Virus record (IMG/VR): IMGVR_UViG_3300010430_000130
Span: 1 to 43,586 of that record
Direction: 5' to 3' (one strand)
Length of the DNA: 43,586 nucleotides
Origin: a virus
A program made the position numbers and the translations under genes. Below are positions 9,762 through 35,627 of the stretch, piece after piece; positions within the stretch are counted from its first letter, which is position 1; each line of letters starts with the position of its first letter. The notes under the pieces are model-generated. The model searched no databases. It was not told the origin of the DNA and saw only the letters and a list, made by a program, of their open reading frames with translations.

Positions 9762-12700
9762 TCAGTCCAACCTCTGGTACCTCGCGTACTTCCGTGTCTC
9801 CTTGACCAGTGTGGCATGGGTGTCGGGGTTCTCTTTGCGGAGCGTCAGCATCCTCTCCGCAGGGAAGGTCGGTCTGTCCGTGACTCCCCGGATCGCTTTG
9901 AGGCTACGGTCTTTGGACATGCCGCTGTCTGTCATCAGAGGAATCTGCTGCGGGGTGGTGAGACCCAGGCTGTTGTACGCCTTGTGAATCCGATTGGCCT
10001 TTGACCACACCTTCACCCGAGCGGCGACCCCCGCCTTGACGAGCTTCGCTACATCGCCATCCGAGATCCCCCTTGGGGACATGATAGGTGCGGTGATCTG
10101 CCACAGCTCCCGGTTCTCTTTGGCGATGTTCCTGTAGGCGCGAGCCGCGAGGTCTTCGAGTCGGTGGACCCGGACCTTAGTCGGCAGTGCCATCCCGAGG
10201 ACAACTCCGAGCGGGGTTTCGAGGAACCCATCCTCGTCGCTCGGTGGTCTGTGGACAGCCTGACCGGCCTGAAGAAGTTTCTTCCCGAGAGCTGGGGTGT
10301 ACGCTCCGAGGAGGAGATGCTTGGACGCCTTCATAATCTTGGTCGGGAAGTCATCGACCTCCAACCAGATCGGCAGGCCGCGCGACTCGTCGAGGTTCCT
10401 GGAGACATCCAACATGGCACCTGCCGCGATGTTCTCTCCGAGGAACTCCTGAGACACGAACCGTCCGGCGATCTCTGGGATCTTGGTCACGTCTCCAGAC
10501 ATGAGGGTCTGGGTCAGAACGTCGAGCGGGAAGGAGAACAGGTTGGTGTAGGTCAGGTCGAGTGTCCGGAGCTTACCGTTCTCCTTGTCCATGAAGTACC
10601 AGAACGAGGTGTTCTTGGCGTACTCCGGCATGGCGGCACGGATCGCTTCGTCCTCCTCTTTGTCGATCCCCATCATGGTCTGGAGGATGATCGGCATGGC
10701 GACTGTCAACCCACCGTGGACGAGACCGGCAGAAGCGAGACGCCTCATACCGTGGTTCCGGAGCACGTCGTTCTTCTCCGCCCTCCCTCTGTTGAAGTCC
10801 TCGCGCCCGAGCTTGTAGGTGTTGACGATGGTCCGGAACATCTCCGTCTTGAACCGGATGAAGGGGGCGATCAACGCGGCGGCGGAGATCTCCGAGAATC
10901 CTTTGACTCCCTGTGAGGTCTCCGACTTGGAGCTGGTCACCATCTTCACCCGGCGAGCTGCTTCCTGCTTTGCTTCCAGCTCCGTATCGTAGATCTTGGC
11001 CCGCTTCAGCGCATCGAGTTCGGCCTCGAAGATCGCGGTGTTCACCCAGGTCTCGGTGATCTCTGCCGTTGCCTCAAGGCCACCCATGAACTTACCCCAT
11101 CCGTCACGACCACTCTTGAGGGCGGTCAACAACTTCGGAGTCACCTCCACACCCTTGCCCTTGATCCATTCGAGGGCGGCGTTCGGGTTCTCTTTGTATC
11201 TGGCGAAGAGGTCGTTGAGGTAGCTGACGTGGACACCGTCGCCAAGGACACGCAGGGCGGTAAGCTCTTCGATGTACTCCTCGGTCTCTTGGTCTACCTC
11301 GGACCCTATGGCGGAAGCGTAAGCAGCTTTCCAGGATTTCACCCCATTCTTGCTGAAGGGGTTCACCCCTTGGGCGAGGCCGACGAGAGTGGTTCCGATT
11401 ACGTTCCGGGTGTAGAACCCGGGGTTGCCGAGAGTCACGATCCCGAGAGAGGTCCCTGCCAGTCCGAGCATGGTGGAGTTGAGCTGATTGAAAGCCTTCC
11501 CCGCCGTGCTGTCCTGCATCTTCTTGGAGTTGTTGAAGGCTGCGTCCCATGCTTCCTTGTTCTCGGGGGAGGTGAAGTATCCATCGAGAGGGGCGTATGC
11601 TTGCGCGAGTGCCCCGGTCCCAACAACGGAGACCCACTTGGAGTACTTGTTGTTGGCTTTCTTCTGGGCCTCGGTGATGATCGTTCCCATCTCGAGACCG
11701 GCCTTCTTGGTGGCAGCGAGTTGCATCTGCGAGAAGAGGATACCCGACACGGATGCCAGTGTCTTGTTGGCGTTGAACCAAGGGTCCTCGATGGTCTCAA
11801 GGACGTTCTCAATCGCAGGCGGGAGGTTCATCTGGTGCAGGAATCGCTCGGTCTCCGTCTTGATACCTGAGTTTGACCCGGACATGTAACTCCCCTCGTG
11901 ACCCTTGACGAAGTCTTGGAACATCGTGGTCGCAGAGTCGTTCGTCGTGTCGAGTTCGGAGACCACATCCCTGAGGTTCGCATCTGGGGTGTGCTCGTGC
12001 TCCGGCAGCTTCTTGAGTTTCTCTATCTCGATGTCGATGATCTTCTCCTTGAAGAATGCGGTCAGCTCATCACGCGGGATCTCGTAGGTCGAGTCCTTCG
12101 CATCGAGCAACATCGCCGCCATCGCTGGGTCCTGGTGGAACCGGTACGAGCGGACGAGGTAGACTCCATTCTGCCTGTCGATGGTGGCTGAGAGGGATGG
12201 GCGATCCTCCTTGTACCACTGGGAGAGTCTCTCGGAGAACTCATCCGTGGTGTCCCTCATCCGAGTGACCCAGTCATAGGTCAAGGGCTTGGTGGCTTCG
12301 AGGATCTCAAGCGCGCTCGACTGGATGTTGCGGCGTCTCTCTGCCTCTTGGAACATCGAAGCACTCTTGGTGTCTTGCTCCCACTGCGCGACCTCATTGA
12401 TAGCGGCCTCCCGCTTCCTAGTGAACTCGGCATGGACCAGCTTGTACGTGTCGTTGGCTTTCTTCTTCGCGGAGTTCCGCTTCCGAAGGGTGTCCTTGTT
12501 CTCGGCTACCCGGATCTCTTCCTCGAGAACCTCCGCGGCATCGGCGATCTTAGTCAAACCAATCGCGTTGGCAGTCTCCATGCGGGTGTCGAACTCCGCT
12601 TGGATGGAGTGCTCCGCGCTTGGGGTGAGGAGGGGGGCGGAGTTACCGAGGGCTTGGTTGACCATGTCGATCTCCGGCTTCTCCTTCTTCATGGCCTTGT

Positions 12701-21685: not shown

Positions 21686-22591
21686 TTACGCCATATCGTC
21701 GGAGTCGAACGCGCGGTCAATCGCCTTGCGGAGGAATGCTTCGTACCCCTGGTCTCCGACCTCCCCCTCCCGGATCATGCGGATGAGGAGGCCGAAGTAG
21801 GCCACGTCCACACCGATGAGTTGTTCCTCAAGGGTGTCCGCATCTTCAAGGTCCAGCTTGCTGATCTGGAACATGATCTTGAGCATCTCGCCCGCACCAA
21901 TCTTCCATCCCCGGAGCACGAACTTCTTCATGCGGATGATCGAGGTCAGCGGATACAGCGAGCCTTGATACTGGAGTTGCTTGGTGAGCAGGCTCTCCAG
22001 TGCCGGTTGGTTCAGCACCAGTCCATCCTTGGTCGTGTAGTAGTTGGTGGCGTGGACGAAGTCGAAGTTCTTGTGGATCTCCTCCTGGGTGCCGCTGAAG
22101 CGGGTGACGATCTGGAGGTCGTCGGTCAGGGAGATCGCGTTCTGGGAGATGAAGGCAACCTGGTACGGGTAGGGCTCCCCGTCGGCACCCTTGATGAGGT
22201 CGCCTTTGTGCCCCCACGCACCCACGTCCATCTTGATCTGCTCCGGCTTCAGTGTGCGGAGCTTCACGTACTCCTCGGACTTGTAGTACTCATCTACATC
22301 CTCAAGTGTGAACTTCTTCCCGTCTATCCACTCGGTGAGGTATTCATCCTTGCGCCTACCATCGAGGACTCCCCCTGGGTTGTAGTACTCGCACAGGTCT
22401 CGGAGGACATCCTGATCCATGATGTACACGTCGAAGTCGTTCACGTCCTCCTGCAAGAGTAGAGATGCGATGCACCCGCCCGACACCAGGAGATTGTCCT
22501 CGACCCGCTTGCGGAGTTCTTTATTCGCGATAGCGGACAACCACGTGTCCATCTTCTTCTTAATTACCTTGCGTGCTGTTTTTGTTTGCAT
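21686..22591 (-). CDS. Nucleotidyltransferase-fold protein
   Basis: A 301-residue protein. Near the N-terminus is the minimal Pol-beta nucleotidyltransferase signature: GG at 38-39 (LLVSGGCIASLL) followed 12 residues later by DFD at 52-54 (VNDFDVYI), i.e. the two metal-binding acids. The remainder is helical and contains a strand-rich middle (YPYQVAFISQNAISLTDDLQ). Such enzymes transfer NMPs to RNA, proteins or small molecules; phage versions of this type are widespread, and their substrates are unknown. The leader is a textbook CAA-rich stretch (TCTAACAACAACAAAACAAC). It is followed by a Cys-rich mini-gene. I see the fold motif but cannot assign a substrate. Confidence 0.75.
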   Translation of the reverse strand: MQTKTARKVIKKKMDTWLSAIANKELRKRVEDNLLVSGGCIASLLLQEDVNDFDVYIMDQDVLRDLCEYYNPGGVLDGRRKDEYLTEWIDGKKFTLEDVDEYYKSEEYVKLRTLKPEQIKMDVGAWGHKGDLIKGADGEPYPYQVAFISQNAISLTDDLQIVTRFSGTQEEIHKNFDFVHATNYYTTKDGLVLNQPALESLLTKQLQYQGSLYPLTSIIRMKKFVLRGWKIGAGEMLKIMFQISKLDLEDADTLEEQLIGVDVAYFGLLIRMIREGEVGDQGYEAFLRKAIDRAFDSDDMA

Positions 22592-23555: not shown

Positions 23556-23669
23556 TTACACGAGGCAGAGGAGGACGCTCAACGCGAAGACTCCGAAGGC
23601 CAGAACCAGGATGGCTGCGGTGGCTGACCTGGCGGGCGTGTCCCGGACGGGTTCCAGTTGGTGGTTCAT
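23556..23669 (-). CDS. 37-residue single-pass membrane protein
   Basis: The frame starts at an ATG that overlaps the TGA of the 333-residue gene as ATGA. It encodes a short charged N-terminus (MNHQLEPVRDTPARS) and then one hydrophobic helix (ATAAILVLAFGVFALSVLLC). This is the layout of a small type I or tail-anchored phage membrane protein; a holin-like or membrane-modulating role is possible but unproven. The strict ATGA coupling supports its reality. Confidence 0.6.
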   Translation of the reverse strand: MNHQLEPVRDTPARSATAAILVLAFGVFALSVLLCLV

Positions 23670-24667
23670 TTCGTCACCCCCCGTCCGTAGAAGTTGATCG
23701 CGCGGCAGATGTTGTTGAAGATCGACGCCTTACTGGTCTCCGGGAACACGCTGGAGATGAAATGGTCTATCCCTCCAGCTTTGAGCACGAGGTCACAGTG
23801 TTTCTGTGCTCCCACGGTGGTGGGGGAGACCCACCTGGCTTGGATGATGTGGCCTGATTCGAGTTGATACTGGATGCCGGGGGCTTTCAGACGCTTGCAC
23901 TTGAAGTACGCCAGACCGTTGGCGATATTCGACTCGATCTCGATGGCTCGCTTCGATCTGTCCGTCCGCTTGTCCTCTTTCGGTGGCTCTACGAACTTCC
24001 CGTGTGGGTCGTTCCGTGTCTCCGGGTTCCCAAAGACTCCTGGAGCGAACTGCTGGAGCTTCGCGATGTTCTCGGGGGTGATGTCCACCACCGGGTCATC
24101 CGAAACCGTGGTGGATTTCTTCGCGATGTACTTCTTCACGGCTTCCCGGATGCGTCTTTCTATCGCGGTGGAGCTGGTTACGGCGTACACCCGAGCGGCG
24201 ACCACGCTGCCTCCGCACGGAGAATGTAGGTGGAGCCTACAGTAGACAGAACCCCCCCCATTCCCCCATTCCCGAGTGAAGAAGAAGCCTACGTCCAGTC
24301 CGTCTGCTTGGTGTACTCGTGCGATAGCCTTGCTGATGAGTGCGTCAATCTCCTTACCCGCAACGGTGTCCTTGTGAGGGAGCACGAAGATGGGGGCTGA
24401 GATGTCCTCCGTGTCACCTGATCTCGTGGTGGTGGGTTCGATGGGGATGTGAACCCAACGACGCTCGTCGAGCTGGTACGACTGGAGCTTCCCTAGCAGG
24501 TCGGGGTGCAAGGCTCCCCGGTGCGTGGTTCTGAACCCCTCGGACTCATCGAGACAGAAAGCGTTGAGGGCTCGGTAGACTTTCACCTTCCCTGTCCTGA
24601 GTCGAATTTTTGTCGGACTCTCCAGAGATCCAATGATCTTGGTTTCGATTATTTTTTGTTTGCTCAT
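23666..24667 (-). CDS. Hypothetical protein, 333 aa
   Basis: The start is taken at the ATG at 24667 (MSKQKIIETKIIG); the frame stays open further upstream only because it reads through stem-loop element 1. The protein has a beta-rich N-terminal half with GFRTTHRGALHPDLLGKLQS, a Gly/His-rich stretch GNGGGSVYCRLHLHSPCGG near 150-170, and helical segments in the C-terminal half. I do not recognise a family. Its stop overlaps the small membrane gene (ATGA). It is the last gene preceded by the repeated stem-loop element, so it shares whatever regulation that element provides. Confidence 0.8.
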   Translation of the reverse strand: MSKQKIIETKIIGSLESPTKIRLRTGKVKVYRALNAFCLDESEGFRTTHRGALHPDLLGKLQSYQLDERRWVHIPIEPTTTRSGDTEDISAPIFVLPHKDTVAGKEIDALISKAIARVHQADGLDVGFFFTREWGNGGGSVYCRLHLHSPCGGSVVAARVYAVTSSTAIERRIREAVKKYIAKKSTTVSDDPVVDITPENIAKLQQFAPGVFGNPETRNDPHGKFVEPPKEDKRTDRSKRAIEIESNIANGLAYFKCKRLKAPGIQYQLESGHIIQARWVSPTTVGAQKHCDLVLKAGGIDHFISSVFPETSKASIFNNICRAINFYGRGVTK

Positions 24668-24679
24668 ATTGTTTATTGG

Positions 24680-24737
24680 TTGCACCTGGAAACCCCGTGG
24701 CCGGACTAGCGGCTCACGGGGTGATGGGGTTGGGCTT
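24680..24737 (-). repeat. Start-associated stem-loop element, copy 1
   Basis: On the minus strand: C-rich arm, then CCCCGTGAGCC, a short loop, GGCCACGGGG (stem 24693-24721) and the conserved tail TTTCCAGGTGCAA. It ends 12 bases before the ATG at 24667. The tail has one change (C to A) compared with the other copies. Confidence 0.9.
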
Positions 24738-24740
24738 GTC

Positions 24741-24926
24741 TCACCGGTTGGTGATAAGCAGGCCAATGGTCTTGGCGTTGTTGCCCTCGTGGTCTCGCTG
24801 CTCCCGTATCAGTCTCGGGAGGCTGAACGGGTTGGTCAGCCATGCCTGGAGGCGTTGGCGGGCGTGGAGTCTTCTCAGGTTCCTCAGTGCGAGCTTGCGG
24901 TGTTGGATCTCAGTTTTGTTTTTCAT
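24741..24926 (-). CDS. Small basic protein
   Basis: A 61-residue, Arg/Leu-rich protein (KLALRNLRRLHARQRLQAWL). The N-terminal two-thirds would form one or two amphipathic basic helices that could bind nucleic acid. It starts eight bases after the stop of the upstream 56-residue gene, so no stem-loop element precedes it, while element 1 follows its stop. No family recognised. Confidence 0.65.
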   Translation of the reverse strand: MKNKTEIQHRKLALRNLRRLHARQRLQAWLTNPFSLPRLIREQRDHEGNNAKTIGLLITNR

Positions 24927-24933
24927 GGTTTCG

Positions 24934-25104
24934 TTAGATTTTCGGCTTCTTCAGGTCTACTATCTTTTTGACGTTAGAGTCGCGCTTTAGGACGGCTCGG
25001 GCTTTCTTGATACTGACCGCCCGGACTTCCTGCTCGATGGTCTGTCCGTTGGTCAAGTAGACCGTGGCGATCCAGGTGTGGACTATCGTGGTGTTGATGC
25101 TCAC
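24934..25104 (-). CDS. Small protein, GTG start
   Basis: A 56-residue protein starting at a GTG whose last bases overlap the TGA of the 279-residue gene (GTGA). The sequence begins MSINTTIVHTWIATVYLTNG and is beta-rich, with a Lys-rich C-terminus (VKKIVDLKKPKI). The layout (short strands, then a helix KKARAVLKR) is that of a small single-domain protein; function unknown. Easily missed because of the GTG start. Confidence 0.65.
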   Translation of the reverse strand: MSINTTIVHTWIATVYLTNGQTIEQEVRAVSIKKARAVLKRDSNVKKIVDLKKPKI

Positions 25105-25940
25105 TTCTGCGTTGCTCGGGAGATGGTTGCGTCGATGAGGGCGATCTGTTCTCTCACAATCTCATGGAAATCTCGCTCGTTGGGGATGATCTCAAGGCAC
25201 AGCGCGAGGAACCGCAGGTCGCTGCGGAGTTGATCCAGGAGTGCCGGGGCGGCACTCCGGAGGCGTAGCCACTGTCGGGCAGTCTCGATCTGTAGGGTTC
25301 CTGAGCGGTGGAACGCTTCCAACCGCTCTTCCGCCGCATTCGCCTCCGTCAACTCCTTCTGCCGCTGTTCCCTCTTCCACTTGGCGTAGGTCTCCTTCTG
25401 CTCCTTGACTAGCTGGACGAGGCGATAGTAGTAATCGTTGATCGCCCGCACCACGTAGGCGGGGATTTGGTAGCCCTCCTCCCCGCTCTGGGGGTTGCCT
25501 TGTTGACGGCGTTCGCAGTGGTTGATCTCTTCTTGCGTGCCGAAGTGGTGGGCAAGGAGCGCGAGGTTTTCGGAGTGGGCGTTGCCCGCTTCGTTGGCTT
25601 TGTAGCGGGCAAGAACTACTACCGGAAACCCCGGGGTCTGTGGAGTCTTGGCGTGCGCGGCTCGCTTGATCTGGTTGTGGATCTCGTTCCACCGGTCGGC
25701 GGCGAGCGTGGCGGGGGTCTTCTCGATGTTCCACAGTGTCCCGTCCGCGTTGCGGATGACCCGGTGAGTCGTTGGGATTTCCCATCTTCCGGCGACCAAG
25801 AATCCCTTTAGCACGACGATGGTTTCTAGGGAGTAGTATCCGACGGTGATTTCCTGAACCAGGGCACCGCTCCGGACGAGTTGATTGTGATAAGCGGAGG
25901 ATAGGTTCCCCGGGTTGTTGCTGTTTGCTTGTGTATTCAT
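25101..25940 (-). CDS. Hypothetical protein, 279 aa
   Basis: The N-terminal third is beta-rich (ITVGYYSLETIVVLKGFLVA). It contains TPGFPVVVLARYKANEAGNA and then a long charged helical region (about 165-225: VRAINDYYYRLVQLVKEQKE, AKWKREQRQKELTEANAAEE) with coiled-coil character. The C-terminus is helical, with LRSDLRFLALCLEI. No catalytic signature was recognised. Element 2 abuts its ATG directly, with no gap. It heads a small coupled unit with the GTG-start gene downstream. Confidence 0.8.
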   Translation of the reverse strand: MNTQANSNNPGNLSSAYHNQLVRSGALVQEITVGYYSLETIVVLKGFLVAGRWEIPTTHRVIRNADGTLWNIEKTPATLAADRWNEIHNQIKRAAHAKTPQTPGFPVVVLARYKANEAGNAHSENLALLAHHFGTQEEINHCERRQQGNPQSGEEGYQIPAYVVRAINDYYYRLVQLVKEQKETYAKWKREQRQKELTEANAAEERLEAFHRSGTLQIETARQWLRLRSAAPALLDQLRSDLRFLALCLEIIPNERDFHEIVREQIALIDATISRATQK

Positions 25941-26000
25941 TGCACCCGGAAACCCCGTGGCCTTGTCAGGGGCTCACAGGGTGATGGGGTTGGGCTGGGC
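25941..26000 (-). repeat. Start-associated stem-loop element, copy 2
   Basis: Same architecture, stem 25953-25981. Here the 5' arm is CCCTGTG instead of CCCCGTG, which changes a C-G pair to U-G and keeps the stem. The tail TTTCCGGGTGCA joins the ATG at 25940 without a spacer. Confidence 0.9.
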
Positions 26001-26004
26001 TGGT

Positions 26005-26271
26005 TCAATGCACGGGGAGATACTTCGCGAGGGTGGCCACATCTCCAGGCCACACCAGGACGACGTCCTTGGGTTCATATACCAGCTCCCCATAAGCGTC
26101 CTCCAATGATCCGTTGGGCAAGAACTGCGCCCCGTGTTCGAGGTTGTGATGGCACTGTCCTAACTGGGCAGCTCGGGTCGCCCCGTGCGGGGTCTCTGCG
26201 GTGCGGAGCGTGGTGCTGGACTTCTCGTATTCTCCGTTCCGAATGTTGATTGTTACGATGTAATGTTTCAT
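26005..26271 (-). CDS. Hypothetical protein, 88 aa
   Basis: The start is the ATG at 26271 (MKHYIVTINIRNGEYEKSST); the open frame above it is only the translated stem-loop element. The N-terminal strands (HYIVTINIRNGEYE) followed by a helix with HGATRAAQLGQCHH and an acidic C-terminal half (ELVYEPKDVVLVWPGDVATL) suggest a small alpha/beta domain. Similar short N-termini occur in other phage proteins of unknown function. It is preceded by element 3. Confidence 0.75.
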   Translation of the reverse strand: MKHYIVTINIRNGEYEKSSTTLRTAETPHGATRAAQLGQCHHNLEHGAQFLPNGSLEDAYGELVYEPKDVVLVWPGDVATLAKYLPVH

Positions 26272-26283
26272 ATTTTTGTTTGG

Positions 26284-26344
26284 TTGCACCCGGAAACCCC
26301 GTGGCCGGGTTAGTGGCTCACGGGGTGATGTGGGGAGACTGGGC
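26284..26344 (-). repeat. Start-associated stem-loop element, copy 3
   Basis: Stem 26297-26325, tail TTTCCGGGTGCAACC, 12 bases before the ATG at 26271. Its C-rich arm is the most diverged (CCCAGTCTCCCCACATCA), while stem and tail are intact. Confidence 0.9.
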
Positions 26345-26360
26345 TCGTTTGATCTACCTG

Positions 26361-26552
26361 TCAAACTTTTCTTTGATAAATCTTTTTATGGTATCCGGAA
26401 CCGTTGCATCTCCTGCATTTCCTCGTCTTATGCCATCCATTCCCCGCGCACTTCTGGCAGTGCAGGGGCTCTGGGTCTGGCTCGTTGGTGAGTCGGAACG
26501 GTGCGGTGATGGCGGGCGGGAAGAACTTGCTTGTCGGGGTGTCGGGTTTCAT
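26361..26552 (-). CDS. Mini zinc-finger protein, DnaJ-like CxxCxGxG motifs
   Basis: A 63-residue protein whose ATG overlaps the stop of the upstream gene as ATGA; a longer in-frame version is not needed. The C-terminal half reads CQKCAGNGW ... CRRCNGSGY, two CxxCxGxG repeats as in the DnaJ/HSP40 cysteine-rich domain, which would bind one zinc. The N-terminal half is Pro-rich and hydrophilic. No J-domain is present. It could be a protein-binding or redox zinc module. It forms a coupled pair with another CxxC protein (26549-26791). Confidence 0.75.
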   Translation of the reverse strand: MKPDTPTSKFFPPAITAPFRLTNEPDPEPLHCQKCAGNGWHKTRKCRRCNGSGYHKKIYQRKV

Positions 26553-26791
26553 GTCGTCTGCTTGGTTGCGAGGTATTGTAGTTTGAACTGAGCTTTTCGC
26601 TTCGCGGCATTGGCTCGGTATCGTCTCTGGGAGCGTTGCCGTGTGCATGTGACGCACTCGCTTCTGCCCTCATACTTGTCACCCGGCTCGCCGCACAGGC
26701 TGCAATCGGGCTCTTTCTCAGCTTCCGTGGGTGTGGGTTTCCAGTAGTCTTGGGAGGCGCGTTGCGCTTGTGTCTCTGTCGATGTTTTCAT
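26549..26791 (-). CDS. Small zinc-finger protein, two CxxC
   Basis: An 80-residue protein. The central part has CSLCGEPGDKYEGRSECVTC, a four-Cys knuckle in the spacing of small zinc ribbons and of HNH-associated fingers, then a strongly basic helix (TRQRSQRRYRANAAKRKAQF). A nucleic-acid-binding role is likely from the finger plus basic tail. Element 4 runs right up to its ATG. It is coupled to the DnaJ-type finger gene downstream. Confidence 0.75.
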   Translation of the reverse strand: MKTSTETQAQRASQDYWKPTPTEAEKEPDCSLCGEPGDKYEGRSECVTCTRQRSQRRYRANAAKRKAQFKLQYLATKQTT

Positions 26792-26850
26792 TGCACCCGG
26801 AAACCCCGTGGCCGGTTGAGGGGCTCACGGGGTGGGGGTTGGGCTTGCTT
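26792..26850 (-). repeat. Start-associated stem-loop element, copy 4
   Basis: Stem 26804-26832 with C-rich arm CCCAACCCCCA. The tail TTTCCGGGTGCA abuts the ATG at 26791 directly. Confidence 0.9.
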
Positions 26851-26853
26851 GAG

Positions 26854-27192
26854 TTACTTCAGACCATACCGGCGTGCCTTGCTTGCCAGGTGGGCGCGGA
26901 GTTCTGGCAATCCTTTCCCCGACCAGGCGGCATTGCGGGTAGCCGTGCCACAGCTCGTGTCCCAGATGTCATTGCTCCCGTGGCGGAGGTTCACCCGGTG
27001 CCCCGAATCGTGCCGGTAGTGGTGAATAAAGTAGTGCCGCCCCGTCAACTCGGTTCCGTGTGGATCGACTACGGGGGTGGTGTGGGTGTATTGATAGGCG
27101 CGTTTCGCTACCAGGCGGTTGAAGGCTTCCCATCCGTCCGGGGATGGTATGTTTCCTGAGTATGTCGATGAGGGGTTCTTGATTGCGATCAT
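26854..27192 (-). CDS. Hypothetical protein, 112 aa
   Basis: A 112-residue protein rich in His, Tyr and Trp (GRHYFIHHYRHDSGHRVNLR) in the middle. It may fold as a small alpha/beta domain with a C-terminal helix (LPELRAHLASKARRYGLK). No catalytic triad or metal motif can be assigned from the sequence, although the His cluster HYFIHHYRHDSGH is unusual. Preceded by element 5, with an unusually long 26-base G-poor spacer to the ATG. Confidence 0.75.
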   Translation of the reverse strand: MIAIKNPSSTYSGNIPSPDGWEAFNRLVAKRAYQYTHTTPVVDPHGTELTGRHYFIHHYRHDSGHRVNLRHGSNDIWDTSCGTATRNAAWSGKGLPELRAHLASKARRYGLK

Positions 27193-27218
27193 GGTTTCTG
27201 GTGGTTTGATTTATTGGT

Positions 27219-27276
27219 TGCACCCGGAAACCCCGTGGCCGGACTAGCGGCTCACGGGGTGGGGGTTGGGTTTGTT
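27219..27276 (-). repeat. Start-associated stem-loop element, copy 5
   Basis: Stem 27231-27259. The longest spacer of the set (26 bases, AACCAATAAATC-type) separates the tail from the ATG at 27192. Confidence 0.9.
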
Positions 27277-27280
27277 TGAG

Positions 27281-27847
27281 TTACTTGTCCCAGATCTCCG
27301 CCACGACGGCGGGCGGAACGCCTGATAGACTCCTCGGGATCTCGTAGCTGAAGGGGACACCTACCAGGTTTCCCCCTTTGGTGGTGACTTCAAAATCGTC
27401 GCCCTCGCTTATCCCGGATAGCGTGTGACCGGAGACGGCGACCTCATATGCCGCCCCGTCGCGTGCCACCAGGATGACTCCTGTCAGGCCGAAACTGTTT
27501 GACGTGCTGGAGATGGCCGCGACTCGGAAAATCCGAGTGATCGGGATCGTCTTGAGCTTATAGCTTTCGAGCAGATCCCGCCGGACGTATCTCTCTGTGA
27601 TGAAGCAGTGAACCCACGTGTCGGGGTTCCCTACGCAACCGCTTGCCAGCTCCGTGTCCCAGCCGTTTAGTTTGGCGAAGTCGGCGGCGGCGGCGGCGTG
27701 CCGGTGATACGTCGGCGCGTTGTAGTCGTGCCGGTTGTCGATGGCGTCCACGCTCCAGATCTTGGCGGGCACTCCTTCGGCGGATACTTTGATTCGGGCG
27801 GGTTTGGTTTCGGTGAAACTCAAGTACTTTGTTTTGATTGCTTTCAT
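27281..27847 (-). CDS. Hypothetical protein, 188 aa
   Basis: A 188-residue protein. The N-terminal half has KIWSVDAIDNRHDYNAPTYH followed by RHAAAAADFAKLNGWDTELA, and the C-terminal half is beta-rich (GLTGVILVARDGAAYEVAVS and onward). The final stretch (SLSGVPPAVVAEIWDK) looks like a terminal helix. No family recognised. It lies between elements 6 and 5, both on its own strand. Confidence 0.75.
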   Translation of the reverse strand: MKAIKTKYLSFTETKPARIKVSAEGVPAKIWSVDAIDNRHDYNAPTYHRHAAAAADFAKLNGWDTELASGCVGNPDTWVHCFITERYVRRDLLESYKLKTIPITRIFRVAAISSTSNSFGLTGVILVARDGAAYEVAVSGHTLSGISEGDDFEVTTKGGNLVGVPFSYEIPRSLSGVPPAVVAEIWDK

Positions 27848-27860
27848 GGTTGTTTATTGG

Positions 27861-27918
27861 TTGCACCCGGAAACCCCGTGGCCGGTTTAGCGGCTCACGG
27901 GGTGGGGGTTGGGTTTGT
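27861..27918 (-). repeat. Start-associated stem-loop element, copy 6
   Basis: Stem 27874-27902, C-rich arm CCCAACCCCCA, 13-base spacer AACCAATAAACAACC to the ATG at 27847. Confidence 0.9.
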
Positions 27919-27923
27919 TTGGA

Positions 27924-28178
27924 TCACTCCCCATAATAAGGTTTGTTATCTCGGCAGTATTGATCTAAGTCGCCATATCTTTCCACCGTGTCAAAATCCT
28001 CTCCGATTTCCTCAAGATATACCCCGTAGGAACCGGCCACATATTCCGCATCCTCCAGAGTCCCCGCCCGGTCAACTCGTGAGCAATGCCTCCCATGGAT
28101 GAAAGCTATCAATCCTCTTTCTCCATAGGGGCACCGGTCTGCTAGCTCTTCAATTTGTGTCTTCTTTTTCGTTGTCAT
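27924..28178 (-). CDS. Small acidic protein, 84 aa
   Basis: An acidic, Tyr-rich protein (ELADRCPYGERGLIAFIHGR, then YVAGSYGVYLEEIGEDFDTV) ending DLDQYCRDNKPYYGE. Three cysteines are spaced widely and do not form an obvious metal site. An acidic mini-protein with this tail could mimic nucleic acid, as some anti-restriction proteins do, but nothing here proves that. Preceded by element 7. Confidence 0.65.
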   Translation of the reverse strand: MTTKKKTQIEELADRCPYGERGLIAFIHGRHCSRVDRAGTLEDAEYVAGSYGVYLEEIGEDFDTVERYGDLDQYCRDNKPYYGE

Positions 28179-28195
28179 TGGTTTGGTTTGGTTGG

Positions 28196-28254
28196 TTGCA
28201 CCCGGAAACCCCGTGGCCGGTTGAAGGGCTCACGGGGTGGGGGTTGGGCTTGCT
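28196..28254 (-). repeat. Start-associated stem-loop element, copy 7
   Basis: Stem 28209-28237, tail TTTCCGGGTGCAACC, a 17-base C/A-rich spacer to the ATG at 28178. Confidence 0.9.
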
Positions 28255-28258
28255 TGGA

Positions 28259-28900
28259 TCAGATTAGGGAATATCCCGCCTCGCGCAAATCTGAGGTGAA
28301 ATCGTAAAGGCGTTGGAGGTTCCCACAGATTTCCACATCGAAAAACGGGCTTCCGTCGGCGTGCGTTTTGACTCCATCGTGGAAGTTCACAACGTGGCGG
28401 GCTTTTCCGATGGCGGGCGTCACGCGGTACCGCTTCCCTAGATCGGGCTTAGGCGCGGGCGCGGGCACGAGTCCGAAAACCTCCACCTGTTTCCCCTCGG
28501 CTTGCACCCTGTCGCGTATCTTGCCATGCAGGGCGATGGGATCGGGGGCTGAGATGCACTCCTGGAGCCCGCCGGATGGTACCCGCGCCTCCCATATCCC
28601 CGCGGAGTCTTTCTCCTTCGGGGCTCCTGTCCCGGTCTCGTAGAGTCTCCAGCTTTCGACTCCATAGGCGCGGCGGAGAGTTTCGCGGATAGCTCCCACA
28701 TCTCCCCACCCGGCGACCAGTAAGGGAATGATTATGTCCCGGGTTTCTGGCGTCTCTGTGAAATGTCTCGCCGTCTCGTAGAAGTAGCATTCCTTTTCGA
28801 TGAAGGCCGTGGATCTCTCCTCCGCGGAGTGAAGGACGAGCCCGCGCGGGCTCACGTGCGCCGATGATTCTCGGCTTGTTTCTGTTTGGTGGTTGCTCAT
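28259..28900 (-). CDS. Hypothetical protein, 213 aa
   Basis: The start is the ATG at 28900 (MSNHQTETSRESSAHVS); the upstream open frame translates the stem-loop. The middle part (about 45-110) has a helical stretch ETRDIIIPLLVAGWGDVGAI and a charged loop. The C-terminal third is strand-rich (VVNFHDGVKTHADGSPFFDV) and ends in a helix (LYDFTSDLREAGYSLI). I recognise no family and no active site. Its base composition is close to that of its neighbours, so no sign of recent transfer. Preceded by element 8. Confidence 0.75.
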   Translation of the reverse strand: MSNHQTETSRESSAHVSPRGLVLHSAEERSTAFIEKECYFYETARHFTETPETRDIIIPLLVAGWGDVGAIRETLRRAYGVESWRLYETGTGAPKEKDSAGIWEARVPSGGLQECISAPDPIALHGKIRDRVQAEGKQVEVFGLVPAPAPKPDLGKRYRVTPAIGKARHVVNFHDGVKTHADGSPFFDVEICGNLQRLYDFTSDLREAGYSLI

Positions 28901-28913
28901 ATTGTTGTAGTGG

Positions 28914-28971
28914 TTGCACCCGGAAACCCCGTGGCCGGTTGACGGGCTCACGGGGTGGCGGGCGGGGCTTG
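28914..28971 (-). repeat. Start-associated stem-loop element, copy 8
   Basis: Stem 28927-28955, spacer 13 bases (AACCACTACAACAAT) to the ATG at 28900. The C-rich arm differs (GCCCCGCCCGCCA). Confidence 0.9.
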
Positions 28972-28981
28972 TTTGCGGGGC

Positions 28982-29353
28982 TTATGAGAGGCGGACGCCT
29001 TCACGCTGGGCGCGGCGCGTTCCAAAGAATCGCGAGTCATCAAAAGACGTATAGGGACGGGCACCGGCAAAGCCCTCTTGATATTCGTCTGCGTCACCGG
29101 CGCGGTAGCTTATGCAATCCTGGCCAAGTAGATCAGACGCCTTGGCCAATGTGGCGAGGGTGATGCTTTCCAGCGGTGCCTTGATTACGAGTACCCATTC
29201 AAATCCATCATCACAGATGGACTTGGCGACGTAGGTCTCAAGGGTTTCAATCCCTAATCCGTGAAGCAGATTGATTACCCGGATTGCGGGGATGGTGGAC
29301 TTGTCGGGACGGCTTAGGCCAATGTTGGCGATGATTTGTTTTTCGTTTTTCAT
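28982..29353 (-). CDS. Hypothetical protein, 123 aa
   Basis: The start is the ATG at 29353 (MKNEKQIIANIGLSRPDKST). Residues 20-70 alternate hydrophobic strands and helices (PAIRVINLLHGLGIETLETY; GFEWVLVIKAPLESITLATL), consistent with a small alpha/beta fold of the ACT or ferredoxin-like kind. The C-terminus is charged and ends REGVRLS. Function not recognised. Preceded by element 9 (23-base spacer). Confidence 0.75.
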   Translation of the reverse strand: MKNEKQIIANIGLSRPDKSTIPAIRVINLLHGLGIETLETYVAKSICDDGFEWVLVIKAPLESITLATLAKASDLLGQDCISYRAGDADEYQEGFAGARPYTSFDDSRFFGTRRAQREGVRLS

Positions 29354-29376
29354 GTTTGTATTGGTTGGTTGCTTGG

Positions 29377-29436
29377 TTGCACCCGGAAACCCCGTGGCCG
29401 GTTTGAACGGCTCACAGGGTGGGGGCTGGGGCTTGC
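29377..29436 (-). repeat. Start-associated stem-loop element, copy 9
   Basis: Stem 29390-29419. Its loop is one base longer than the others, and CCCTGTG again replaces CCCCGTG, keeping the stem by a U-G pair. It is the first copy met by transcription from the right. Confidence 0.9.
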
Positions 29437-29441
29437 TTGGT

Positions 29442-29783
29442 TCAATGAACCCGGCGAGGGTGTGGCTGGGCAAGCCGGGCTCTCAATGCGTCCAGTCTCT
29501 TGTTGTATCTATCCTCCTTTTCATCTTTCAGATTCTCCGCAATGACGGAATCAATCGCGGCTTGGTAGCTGTCCGCATGAAACTCGTGCTTGGATAGATC
29601 TAGATCCGCTTGTTCAATGTCCACCCCGGTCTCTGCTTCGATGAAAGCCCGGATTGCGTTTTCGATGTGGAACGCTGCACCTGCAAAGAGTTCACTGTGA
29701 AGCGGGGAATCTTCGAGATCCACCCGTGACCGGCTGAGGGTTTCGAGGGTCTGGCGGGCGGATGGGCTTAGTTGCGTTTTCAT
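29442..29783 (-). CDS. Hypothetical protein, 113 aa; first gene of the minus operon
   Basis: The ATG at 29783 is followed by MKTQLSPSARQTLETLSRSR. The protein is helical throughout, with an acidic middle (AIRAFIEAETGVDIEQADLD) and a basic C-terminus (RYNKRLDALRARLAQPH). It is the first gene of the minus operon next to the divergent intergenic region. It lacks the standard element but has its own short hairpin (29811-29829) and a CAA-rich leader (AACAACCAACCAACAACC) in the same position. Function unknown. Confidence 0.75.
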   Translation of the reverse strand: MKTQLSPSARQTLETLSRSRVDLEDSPLHSELFAGAAFHIENAIRAFIEAETGVDIEQADLDLSKHEFHADSYQAAIDSVIAENLKDEKEDRYNKRLDALRARLAQPHPRRVH

Positions 29784-29944: not shown

Positions 29945-30276
29945 CGGAGACCATCTAACAGGGGCTAGGGAGACCGGCGAGACCGTCGACCGGCGAGACC
30001 GTCGACCGGCGAGACCGTCGACCGGCGAGACCGGGAGACCGGGAGACCGGGAGACCGGGAGACCGGGAGACCGGGAGACCGGGAGACCGTCGACCCTGCA
30101 ATCCGTCCATAGTATAGGGAGCCGTTCTTGCGGTGTTCAGACGAGTAAGGGATTCAGGGATTCAGGGAGTCACCTCAGCTTGGCACTAACGCAAGCTGGA
30201 GGCGTTAGGGCTCAGGCCCGCCCGGTGATCCATAATCCCGCCAATCAACTACCCATCGGAGACCCTCTAACAGGGG
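29945..30276. repeat. Direct repeat pair CGGAGACC(A/C)TCTAACAGGGG
   Basis: The 20-base sequence at 29945-29964 recurs at 30257-30276 with a single difference (A versus C). The second copy can form a CCCT/AGGG mini-hairpin. The pair brackets the GAGACCGG array and the spacer that follows it. Confidence 0.6.
29970..30096. repeat. Tandem repeat array, 16-mer and 8-mer units
   Basis: Three exact copies of GAGACCGTCGACCGGC (29979-30026) run into seven exact copies of GAGACCGG (30027-30082), then GAGACCGTCGACC. The 8-mer looks like a shortened version of the 16-mer, so the array probably grew by slippage or unequal exchange. It has no coding frame worth keeping. Confidence 0.9.
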
Positions 30277-34261: not shown

Positions 34262-34656
34262 CCTTCGAGGTTGAGACCTGCGAGGAAGGCCACCCGAAGC
34301 CGGTCTTCCAGCTCTCCGTAGAGACGGGCGTGGTCCTTGGGGAGGCGAGTGTCCATGGCATCGAGACCAGCCGGACTGGCGCAGAACTCGCGGAAGGACT
34401 CCTCGATGAAGGAGAGTCCAACATCCTTGGCAACCGCGGCCTGCTCGTTGAGCGTGTCATCGGGTGGAGTCTCGATGACCGGAGTCTCGACGACCGGAGT
34501 CTCGACGACCGGAGTCTCGACGACCGGAGCTTCGACGACGACTCCCGGAGGACCGGGATAGACTGTGACAACGCCGGGAGTCGGGGACTCGCAAGCGGAT
34601 GAGGTTGGTTTTTTAGCTGACGGGATTATTTTCAGTGGACGTTTGTTTCTTGCCAT
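34258..34656 (-). CDS. Protein with VVETP tandem repeats
   Basis: A 132-residue protein. A Lys/Ser-rich N-terminus precedes a tandem stretch PVVETPVVETPVVETPVIET at about 45-64. Each five-residue unit is encoded by a 15-base repeat (GGAGTCTCGACGACC), so the length is likely to change by slippage. The C-terminal half (FIEESFREFCASPAGLDAMD) is helical. The leader toward the divergent plus gene contains one copy of the 24-bp element at 34697-34720. Function unknown. Confidence 0.7.
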   Translation of the reverse strand: MARNKRPLKIIPSAKKPTSSACESPTPGVVTVYPGPPGVVVEAPVVETPVVETPVVETPVIETPPDDTLNEQAAVAKDVGLSFIEESFREFCASPAGLDAMDTRLPKDHARLYGELEDRLRVAFLAGLNLEG

Positions 34657-34696: not shown

Positions 34697-34720
34697 AATT
34701 ACGAATTATCTCGACGACTC
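34697..34720 (+). repeat. 24-bp start-linked repeat, copy 1
   Basis: Begins AATTACGAATTATCTCGACG and ends ACTC; the identical 24 bases occur at 35604-35627. Here the full dyad ATAATT-ACG-AATTAT is present. It ends 27 bases before the ATG at 34748, and the sequence just before that ATG (GTACCTCGACATGA) also resembles copy 2's. It may be a phage promoter or operator. Confidence 0.85.
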
Positions 34721-35564: not shown

Positions 35565-35604
35565 GAACAAGGAGATCACCCGTCGCCTGATGCTTGAAAA
35601 ATAA
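35562..35604 (+). pseudogene. Fragment copying the DUF3310 C-terminus
   Basis: Right after the stop of the 103-residue gene, a separate frame reads KNKEITRRLMLEK then TAA. The DUF3310 gene ends REITRRLAKDQTP, and 14 bases (ATCACCCGTCGCCT) are identical (34994-35007 and 35575-35588). It leads directly into copy 2 of the 24-bp repeat, so gene end and repeat seem to have been duplicated as one segment. Confidence 0.55.
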
Positions 35605-35627
35605 ATTACGAATTATCTCGACGACTC
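35604..35627 (+). repeat. 24-bp start-linked repeat, copy 2
   Basis: Identical to 34697-34720. It ends 28 bases before the ATG at 35656, which is also preceded by GTACCCGACATGA, matching the GTACCTCGACATGA of copy 1. Both copies read in the direction of the downstream gene. Confidence 0.85.

Follow-up and report, generated by a model that had tools for sequence, protein, structure and literature searches.

Why does a phage place the same hairpin-forming repeat nine times between the genes of one operon? The window analysed here, i.e., the whole 43,586-base viral record, raises this question at 24.67-29.44 kb, where nine near-identical elements of about 62-75 nt all lie on the transcribed minus strand. 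An earlier note on this DNA had placed nine copies before nine minus-strand starts (24667, 25940, 26271, 26791, 27192, 27847, 28178, 28900, and 29353); all of these are present, and every copy is oriented in the sense of transcription, as had been proposed. The note had also stated that the elements fill almost the whole intergenic space and occur nowhere else in the window. The former can be put more strictly, as each of the nine occupies its entire gap from the upstream stop codon to the next start (gap sizes 62-89 nt). The latter holds as well: copy 1, used as a blastn query against the whole record, matches exactly the nine copies, and a covariance model scores them at 77-91 bits and everything else in the window at 17 bits or less; because the model was built from the same nine copies, their own scores arise by construction, and the informative part is the absence of matches elsewhere. 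The position and orientation of the following copies are in this sense demonstrated.

24668-24740, minus strand, copy 1: stem ACCCCGTGaGCCG/CGGCCACGGGGT; tail variant TTTCCAGGTGCA; 13 nt to the ATG at 24667
25941-26004, minus strand, copy 2: C-to-T change in the stem (G.U in RNA); tail directly against the ATG at 25940
26272-26360, minus strand, copy 3: longer 5' arm; unused TAG at the position of the other copies' stop codon; 13 nt to the ATG at 26271
26792-26853, minus strand, copy 4: tail directly against the ATG at 26791
27193-27280, minus strand, copy 5: 26 nt to the ATG at 27192
27848-27923, minus strand, copy 6: 14 nt to the ATG at 27847
28179-28258, minus strand, copy 7: 18 nt to the ATG at 28178
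28901-28981, minus strand, copy 8: divergent 5' arm, CGCCCG/CGGGTG pairing kept; 14 nt to the ATG at 28900
29354-29441, minus strand, copy 9: C-to-T change in the stem, outer G.U pair, 9-nt loop; 24 nt to the ATG at 29353

The genes around these copies are arranged as follows.

24741-29783, minus strand: leftward genes with element-bearing junctions
29442-29783, 28982-29353, 28259-28900, 27924-28178, 27281-27847, 26854-27192, and 26005-26271, minus strand: leftward genes
26549-26791, minus strand: leftward gene, accompanied by another small ORF that ends at 26361
25101-25940, minus strand: leftward gene, with small ORFs to 24741
23666-24667, minus strand: 333-aa gene following the last element; no match to any family

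Comparison of the main array ORFs with Pfam and PHROGs assigned no function. Element-free junctions in the same stretch (around 26551, 25105, and 24926) are short or overlapping, and neither the first gene (29783) nor the genes below 23.6 kb carry the element. Judging by its presence or absence at each junction, the element thus splits the promoter-proximal part of the leftward operon into modules that hold one to three genes each.

Read 5' to 3' on the transcript, an element begins with the stop codon of the upstream gene and continues with, usually, nnCAARCAARCCC, a C-rich arm, the inner stem strand ACCCCGTG, a bulged A, GCC, and the loop, after which come GGC, CACGGGGT, TTCC, GGGTGCA, a spacer of 0-26 nt, and the ATG. 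The inner stem has 8 bp (ACCCCGTG/CACGGGGT) and is followed by the conserved bulged A, beyond which there are 3 bp (GCC/GGC; 4 bp in copies 1, 5, 6, and 9) and a loop of 8 nt (9 nt in copy 9). RNAfold predicts this inner hairpin in all nine copies (z-scores -1.8 to -4.2) and, in most of them, a short outer helix between the C-rich arm and GGGT(GC) (ACCC/GGGT), which has one broken pair in copies 1 and 3 and comes to within 1 nt of the AUG in copies 2 and 4. In the consensus structure, 15 pairs are formed and 98.5% of cells are paired. No pair shows a two-sided compensatory change among these nine copies of one genome, and the fall in pairing to 27-54% when partners are slid by one to three columns is expected of any inverted repeat and is no proof of function.

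Several details of the earlier description need amendment at this level. The tail is not invariant, as TTTCCGGGTGCA reads TTTCCAGGTGCA in copy 1; in copies 2 and 4, the last A of TGCAA doubles as the A of the ATG. The spacer does span 0 to 26 bases, but it is G-poor rather than G-free, since copies 5 and 9 each contain one G. A competing AACCCC/GGGGTT pairing, which the note had suggested, is possible in only six of the nine copies and is not conserved, because AACCCC is missing from copies 3, 8, and 9. The stem change in copies 2 and 9 retains pairing (G.U), as claimed, but it is a one-sided C-to-U change without any change in the partner.

The stem and tail are under selection. Only 2 of 34 columns vary in the stem, bulged A, and tail, compared with 7 of 8 in the loop (Fisher p = 1e-5); since recent duplicates would vary evenly, changes that spare the stem, bulge, and tail but not the loop indicate selection on the element beyond recent copying. 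The strand on which pairing is kept may also be informative. Among the eight base-pair cells with a variant, six keep their pairing on the transcribed strand by forming G.U, whereas seven would mismatch on the complementary strand; with cells that are few and non-independent, this asymmetry may be taken as modest evidence on the question of RNA versus DNA.

The claim that the elements lie just upstream of start codons is true but incomplete, as they are anchored more tightly to the upstream stop. In copies 1 to 9, the distance from stop codon to hairpin is 18, 22, 34, 20, 20, 20, 20, 25, and 21 nt (sd 4.7), versus 13, 0, 13, 0, 26, 14, 18, 14, and 24 nt from the tail end to the ATG (sd 8.5). 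Because of this spacing, and because most copies have their stop codon in register with the repeat, the element is tied to the end of the upstream gene at least as much as to the downstream start. A hairpin that begins 18-34 nt past the stop (20 nt in four copies) would be left free by a terminating ribosome. No Shine-Dalgarno (SD) core (GGAG, GAGG, or AGGA) occurs in any of the nine gaps, an SD-like core is missing from positions -18 to -4 at all 21 leftward starts examined, and the spacers resemble the ordinary leaders of this phage. Given this absence of SD sequences in the gaps and at the leftward starts, the phage probably initiates translation without SD from G-poor leaders.

The phage appears isolated in sequence space, judged against collections from which its very nearest records may be missing. 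Among phages, neither the region (megablast) nor the terminase and the gene at 28982-29353 (tblastn) had a match, the primase gave only matches of about 27% identity or less, and searches of viral contigs with the terminase, the primase, and the genes at 25101-25940 and 23666-24667 revealed no relative. The gene at 21686-22591 is common to five viral contigs (48-53% identity), with no other tested window protein at those loci. The element itself was absent from IMG/VR in a 23-mer scan (a 16-mer scan gave five single matches) and from 84,980 prokaryote genomes in a 21-mer scan, and a distant blastn search returned chance matches only. For the gene at 27281-27847, there are two weak homologues, one in viral contig L016 and one in Pseudoalteromonas phage H101 (PH101; E = 0.06). 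The former (112 aa, 35% over 92 residues) stands alone, flanked by two CTAACTGCCG...CGGTTAGAT hairpins, which look like integron attC sites; the 58-kb record of this contig has six GTTAGATC, all in the same direction and confined to a stretch of 1.8 kb. An attC array has been reported in phage H101 (PMC9892861). The possibility that the H101 homologue lies inside it was considered and rejected, as the sequence shows no convincing attC pair beside the gene. The window's element is absent at both homologues and so is a property of this phage and not of the gene.

Searches for known signals were likewise negative. Rfam gave no match at gathering score in the window, and the terminator scan found no intrinsic terminator on the minus strand, where only TTT follows the hairpin. 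No sigma-70-like -35/-10 pair lies inside any conserved element. One chance-level sigma-70-like match (24675-24648) overlaps the spacer and start of the gene at 24667. A 2,528-aa protein prompted the idea of hairpin promoters for an N4-type virion RNA polymerase; this was rejected, as the protein has weak, function-less Pfam and PHROG matches and none to a polymerase.

Certain phage systems are nonetheless comparable. The RNase III sites of the T7 early genes are irregular hairpins of about 60 nt with an asymmetric internal loop, located between cistrons of one transcript; their sequence varies, and their helices are longer than those of the nine elements. The latter resemble them as irregular intercistronic hairpins. 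In T4-type phages, PeSL (promoter-early stem-loop) cassettes combine an early promoter with terminator-like stem-loops and have been proposed as a shuffling aid. The likeness lies in a repeated intergenic stem-loop between small function-less genes; unlike PeSL, the nine elements match neither an early promoter nor a terminator-like stem-loop.

Start-associated repeats of the SAS/ESAS kind (PMC3203893, PMC11373665, PMC12699233), to which the earlier note had compared the elements, are alike in kind, but membership of the elements among them is not supported. The SAS of cluster K mycobacteriophages measures 13 bp, includes an SD, and sits 3-9 nt from the start (Pope et al. 2011, PMC3203893). 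ESAS combines an inverted repeat with promoters of the SigA type (PMC11373665); its variants give no support to pairing in RNA, and DNA binding is the explanation favoured by Pope et al. (PMC3203893). Like both, the nine elements come in many copies per phage, all facing the same way and located in widened gaps ahead of non-structural genes; like ESAS, they have an inverted repeat with a variable spacer, which is present upstream of the start in all nine. Unlike SAS/ESAS, they have no SD and no promoter-like hexamers, their distance to the start is variable and that to the stop tighter, and their pairing tolerates G.U on the transcript strand. The 13-bp SAS GGGATAGGAGCCC, with up to two mismatches, has three matches in the window (1.65 expected), none of them at an element. 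A 26-bp start-associated repeat occurs eight times in one arm of Citrobacter phage Mordin, in front of hypothetical genes (PMC4611695); this repeat is shorter than the present elements and has a GGAG core, and a hairpin was not reported for it.

At which level might the element act? It could be a DNA site, i.e., an operator or promoter through which a phage or host regulator controls a separate start for every module. The near identity of the copies and their inverted repeats would suit a DNA-binding protein, and such a role has been proposed for cluster K ESAS (PMC11373665, PMC3203893). However, this appears rather unlikely here: sigma-70-like hexamers are found in none of the nine elements, although an exotic sigma factor or phage polymerase might still use them; conservation stops at the tail, which touches the ATG in copies 2 and 4, so that no conserved downstream -10 is possible; and there is no copy in the opposite orientation and none before the first gene. 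Alternatively, a repressor or activator might close or open the initiation regions of all nine modules together. The element does sit before the ATG, with an outer helix that, in copies 2 and 4, stops 1 nt short of the AUG, and its hairpin recalls the coat-protein operator of RNA phages, which likewise has a bulged A. Such translational control at the downstream start, raised by the earlier note as a translation switch, is nonetheless improbable, weakened as it is by the tighter anchoring to the upstream stop, by ATG distances that range from 0 to 26 nt, and by the lack of SD.

The genes might instead be exchangeable cassettes, the element being an attC-like folded single-strand site served by a recombinase. 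Sites of the attC type, including those of phage-borne arrays (PMC9892861), have the same stop-to-start placement, single orientation, and function-less genes, and fold into an imperfect palindrome with a bulge, an internal loop, and a variable tip. The in-register stop codons, the mostly single function-less gene per unit, the extrahelical base, the L016 homologue between its attC-like hairpins, and the functional attC arrays of virulent phages (PMC9892861) are consistent with this reading. However, the integron R' box GTTRRRY is absent from the 3' side of all nine copies on the coding strand, the R'' box RYYYAAC is present on the 5' side of only six, and the surroundings of the H101 homologue lack a convincing attC pair. 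Moreover, pairing-preserving variants favour the coding strand, whereas attC works as the bottom strand, and neither an integrase nor any other tyrosine recombinase was found in the record (attC arrays without an integrase exist). The attC-like reading is accordingly unlikely. It is more doubtful that these are non-integron cassette sites, i.e., R'-less, stop-carrying hairpins with an extrahelical base, used by a novel recombinase or by single-strand annealing, which would make the operon exchangeable. There is also only a slim chance that the repeat is a homologous-recombination hotspot and nothing else, homogenised by recombination and shuffling modules through a RecT-like annealing protein, with no regulation. 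This would be in keeping with nine near-identical 60-nt tracts between function-less genes, a weak RecT-like match at 797-1282 (E = 0.002), and character combinations among copies that are widely incompatible with a single tree (four-gamete test). However, pure homology would not leave the loop free of constraint, and the incompatibilities are unclustered by distance (PHI-like p = 0.82) and so do not demonstrate exchange between copies.

Tentatively preferred here is an RNA-level reading, in which the element would serve as a punctuation hairpin between cistrons and bring about their processing or insulation. This reading is ranked first, before the DNA operator or promoter and, in third place, the cassette recombination site, because orientation, gap-filling, ribosome-free stop spacing, and transcript-strand pairing fit it, as does the absence of a sigma-70-like promoter, terminator, or SD. 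Folding in vivo, a reader protein, and cutting or insulation are inferred. Each copy would fold within the polycistronic leftward transcript, past the footprint of the ribosome terminating the upstream gene, into a bipartite form with an outer helix of 4-6 bp, an asymmetric internal loop, and the 8-bp inner helix, followed by the conserved bulged A, 3-4 more pairs, and the free loop. The invariant stem, bulge, and tail could then be read by a host or phage RNA-binding protein or endoribonuclease; the invariant stem sequence suggests a sequence-specific reader over a purely structural nuclease. Cistrons would thereby be processed or insulated, each module gaining a structured 3' end and the next one starting with a G-poor, unstructured leader suited to SD-independent initiation. 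The repeats may additionally provide homology for module exchange. Against RNA punctuation, it should be noted that the nine copies hold no two-sided compensatory change, that the stems are more alike in sequence than a signal read by structure alone (an RNase III site, for example) would require, that the variant-pair asymmetry derives from few non-independent changes, and that the outer helix is short, with a broken pair in copies 1 and 3.

Phages are already known to contain repeated start-associated elements, a kind of sequence that still lacks an explanation; together with intercistronic ones, such elements have been found in a few unrelated phages since 2011, with no settled function. 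What is new here is a hairpin-centred, stop-anchored variant. Its anatomy is clean, with a constrained stem, bulge, and tail, a free loop, stop anchoring, no SD, and no sigma-70-like promoter, and as a result RNA processing, DNA regulation, and cassette recombination become separable by simple experiments. If the element acts at the RNA level, this phage would punctuate an operon with one repeated hairpin; if it acts at the DNA level, it may represent a new cassette site.

None of the 21 leftward starts in the window, between 683 and 29783, has a Shine-Dalgarno core upstream, and their leaders are rich in A and C and poor in G, hinting that the host of this virus initiates translation without such a sequence. 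Other features of the window and of L016, a 58-kb viral contig, are as follows.

Window 26361-26791: two small proteins in one module, with zinc-ribbon-like CxxC pairs, read from sequence
Window 29963-30095, leftward operon leader: tandem array of 16-bp units, GAGACCGTCGACCGGC and GGTCTCCC
Window 34466-34540: tandem array of a 15-bp unit, GGAGTCTCGACGACC, between rightward genes
Window 34697-34717 and 35604-35624, + strand: a second start-associated repeat, AATTACGAATTATCTCGACGA, two copies
L016 (IMGVR_UViG_3300036830_000166) 9912-10391: pair of attC-like hairpins with a gene homologue

The two copies of AATTACGAATTATCTCGACGA, which match exactly, each lie approx. 30 nt upstream of an ATG (34748 and 35656); the repeat is AT-rich and partly palindromic, and is possibly a promoter or operator. 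Both tandem arrays might represent replication iterons or regulator sites. Within the leftward module, the CxxC pairs (CSLCGEP...CVTC; CQKCAGNGWHKTRKCRRCNGSG) suggest possible nucleic-acid binders.

In L016, the homologue of window gene 27281-27847 is flanked by two attC-like hairpins (GCCTAAC...GTTAGAT and GACTAAC...GTTAGAT). Six copies of GTTAGATC, all in the same orientation, occur within a 1.8-kb stretch of this contig, and no tyrosine recombinase was found in its record.

Some phage relatives of window gene 21686-22591 are annotated as tRNA nucleotidyltransferase and others are not; the relative in Tenacibaculum phage Larrie shares 52% identity. Because this gene is common to viral contigs that are unrelated in other respects, it appears to be horizontally mobile.
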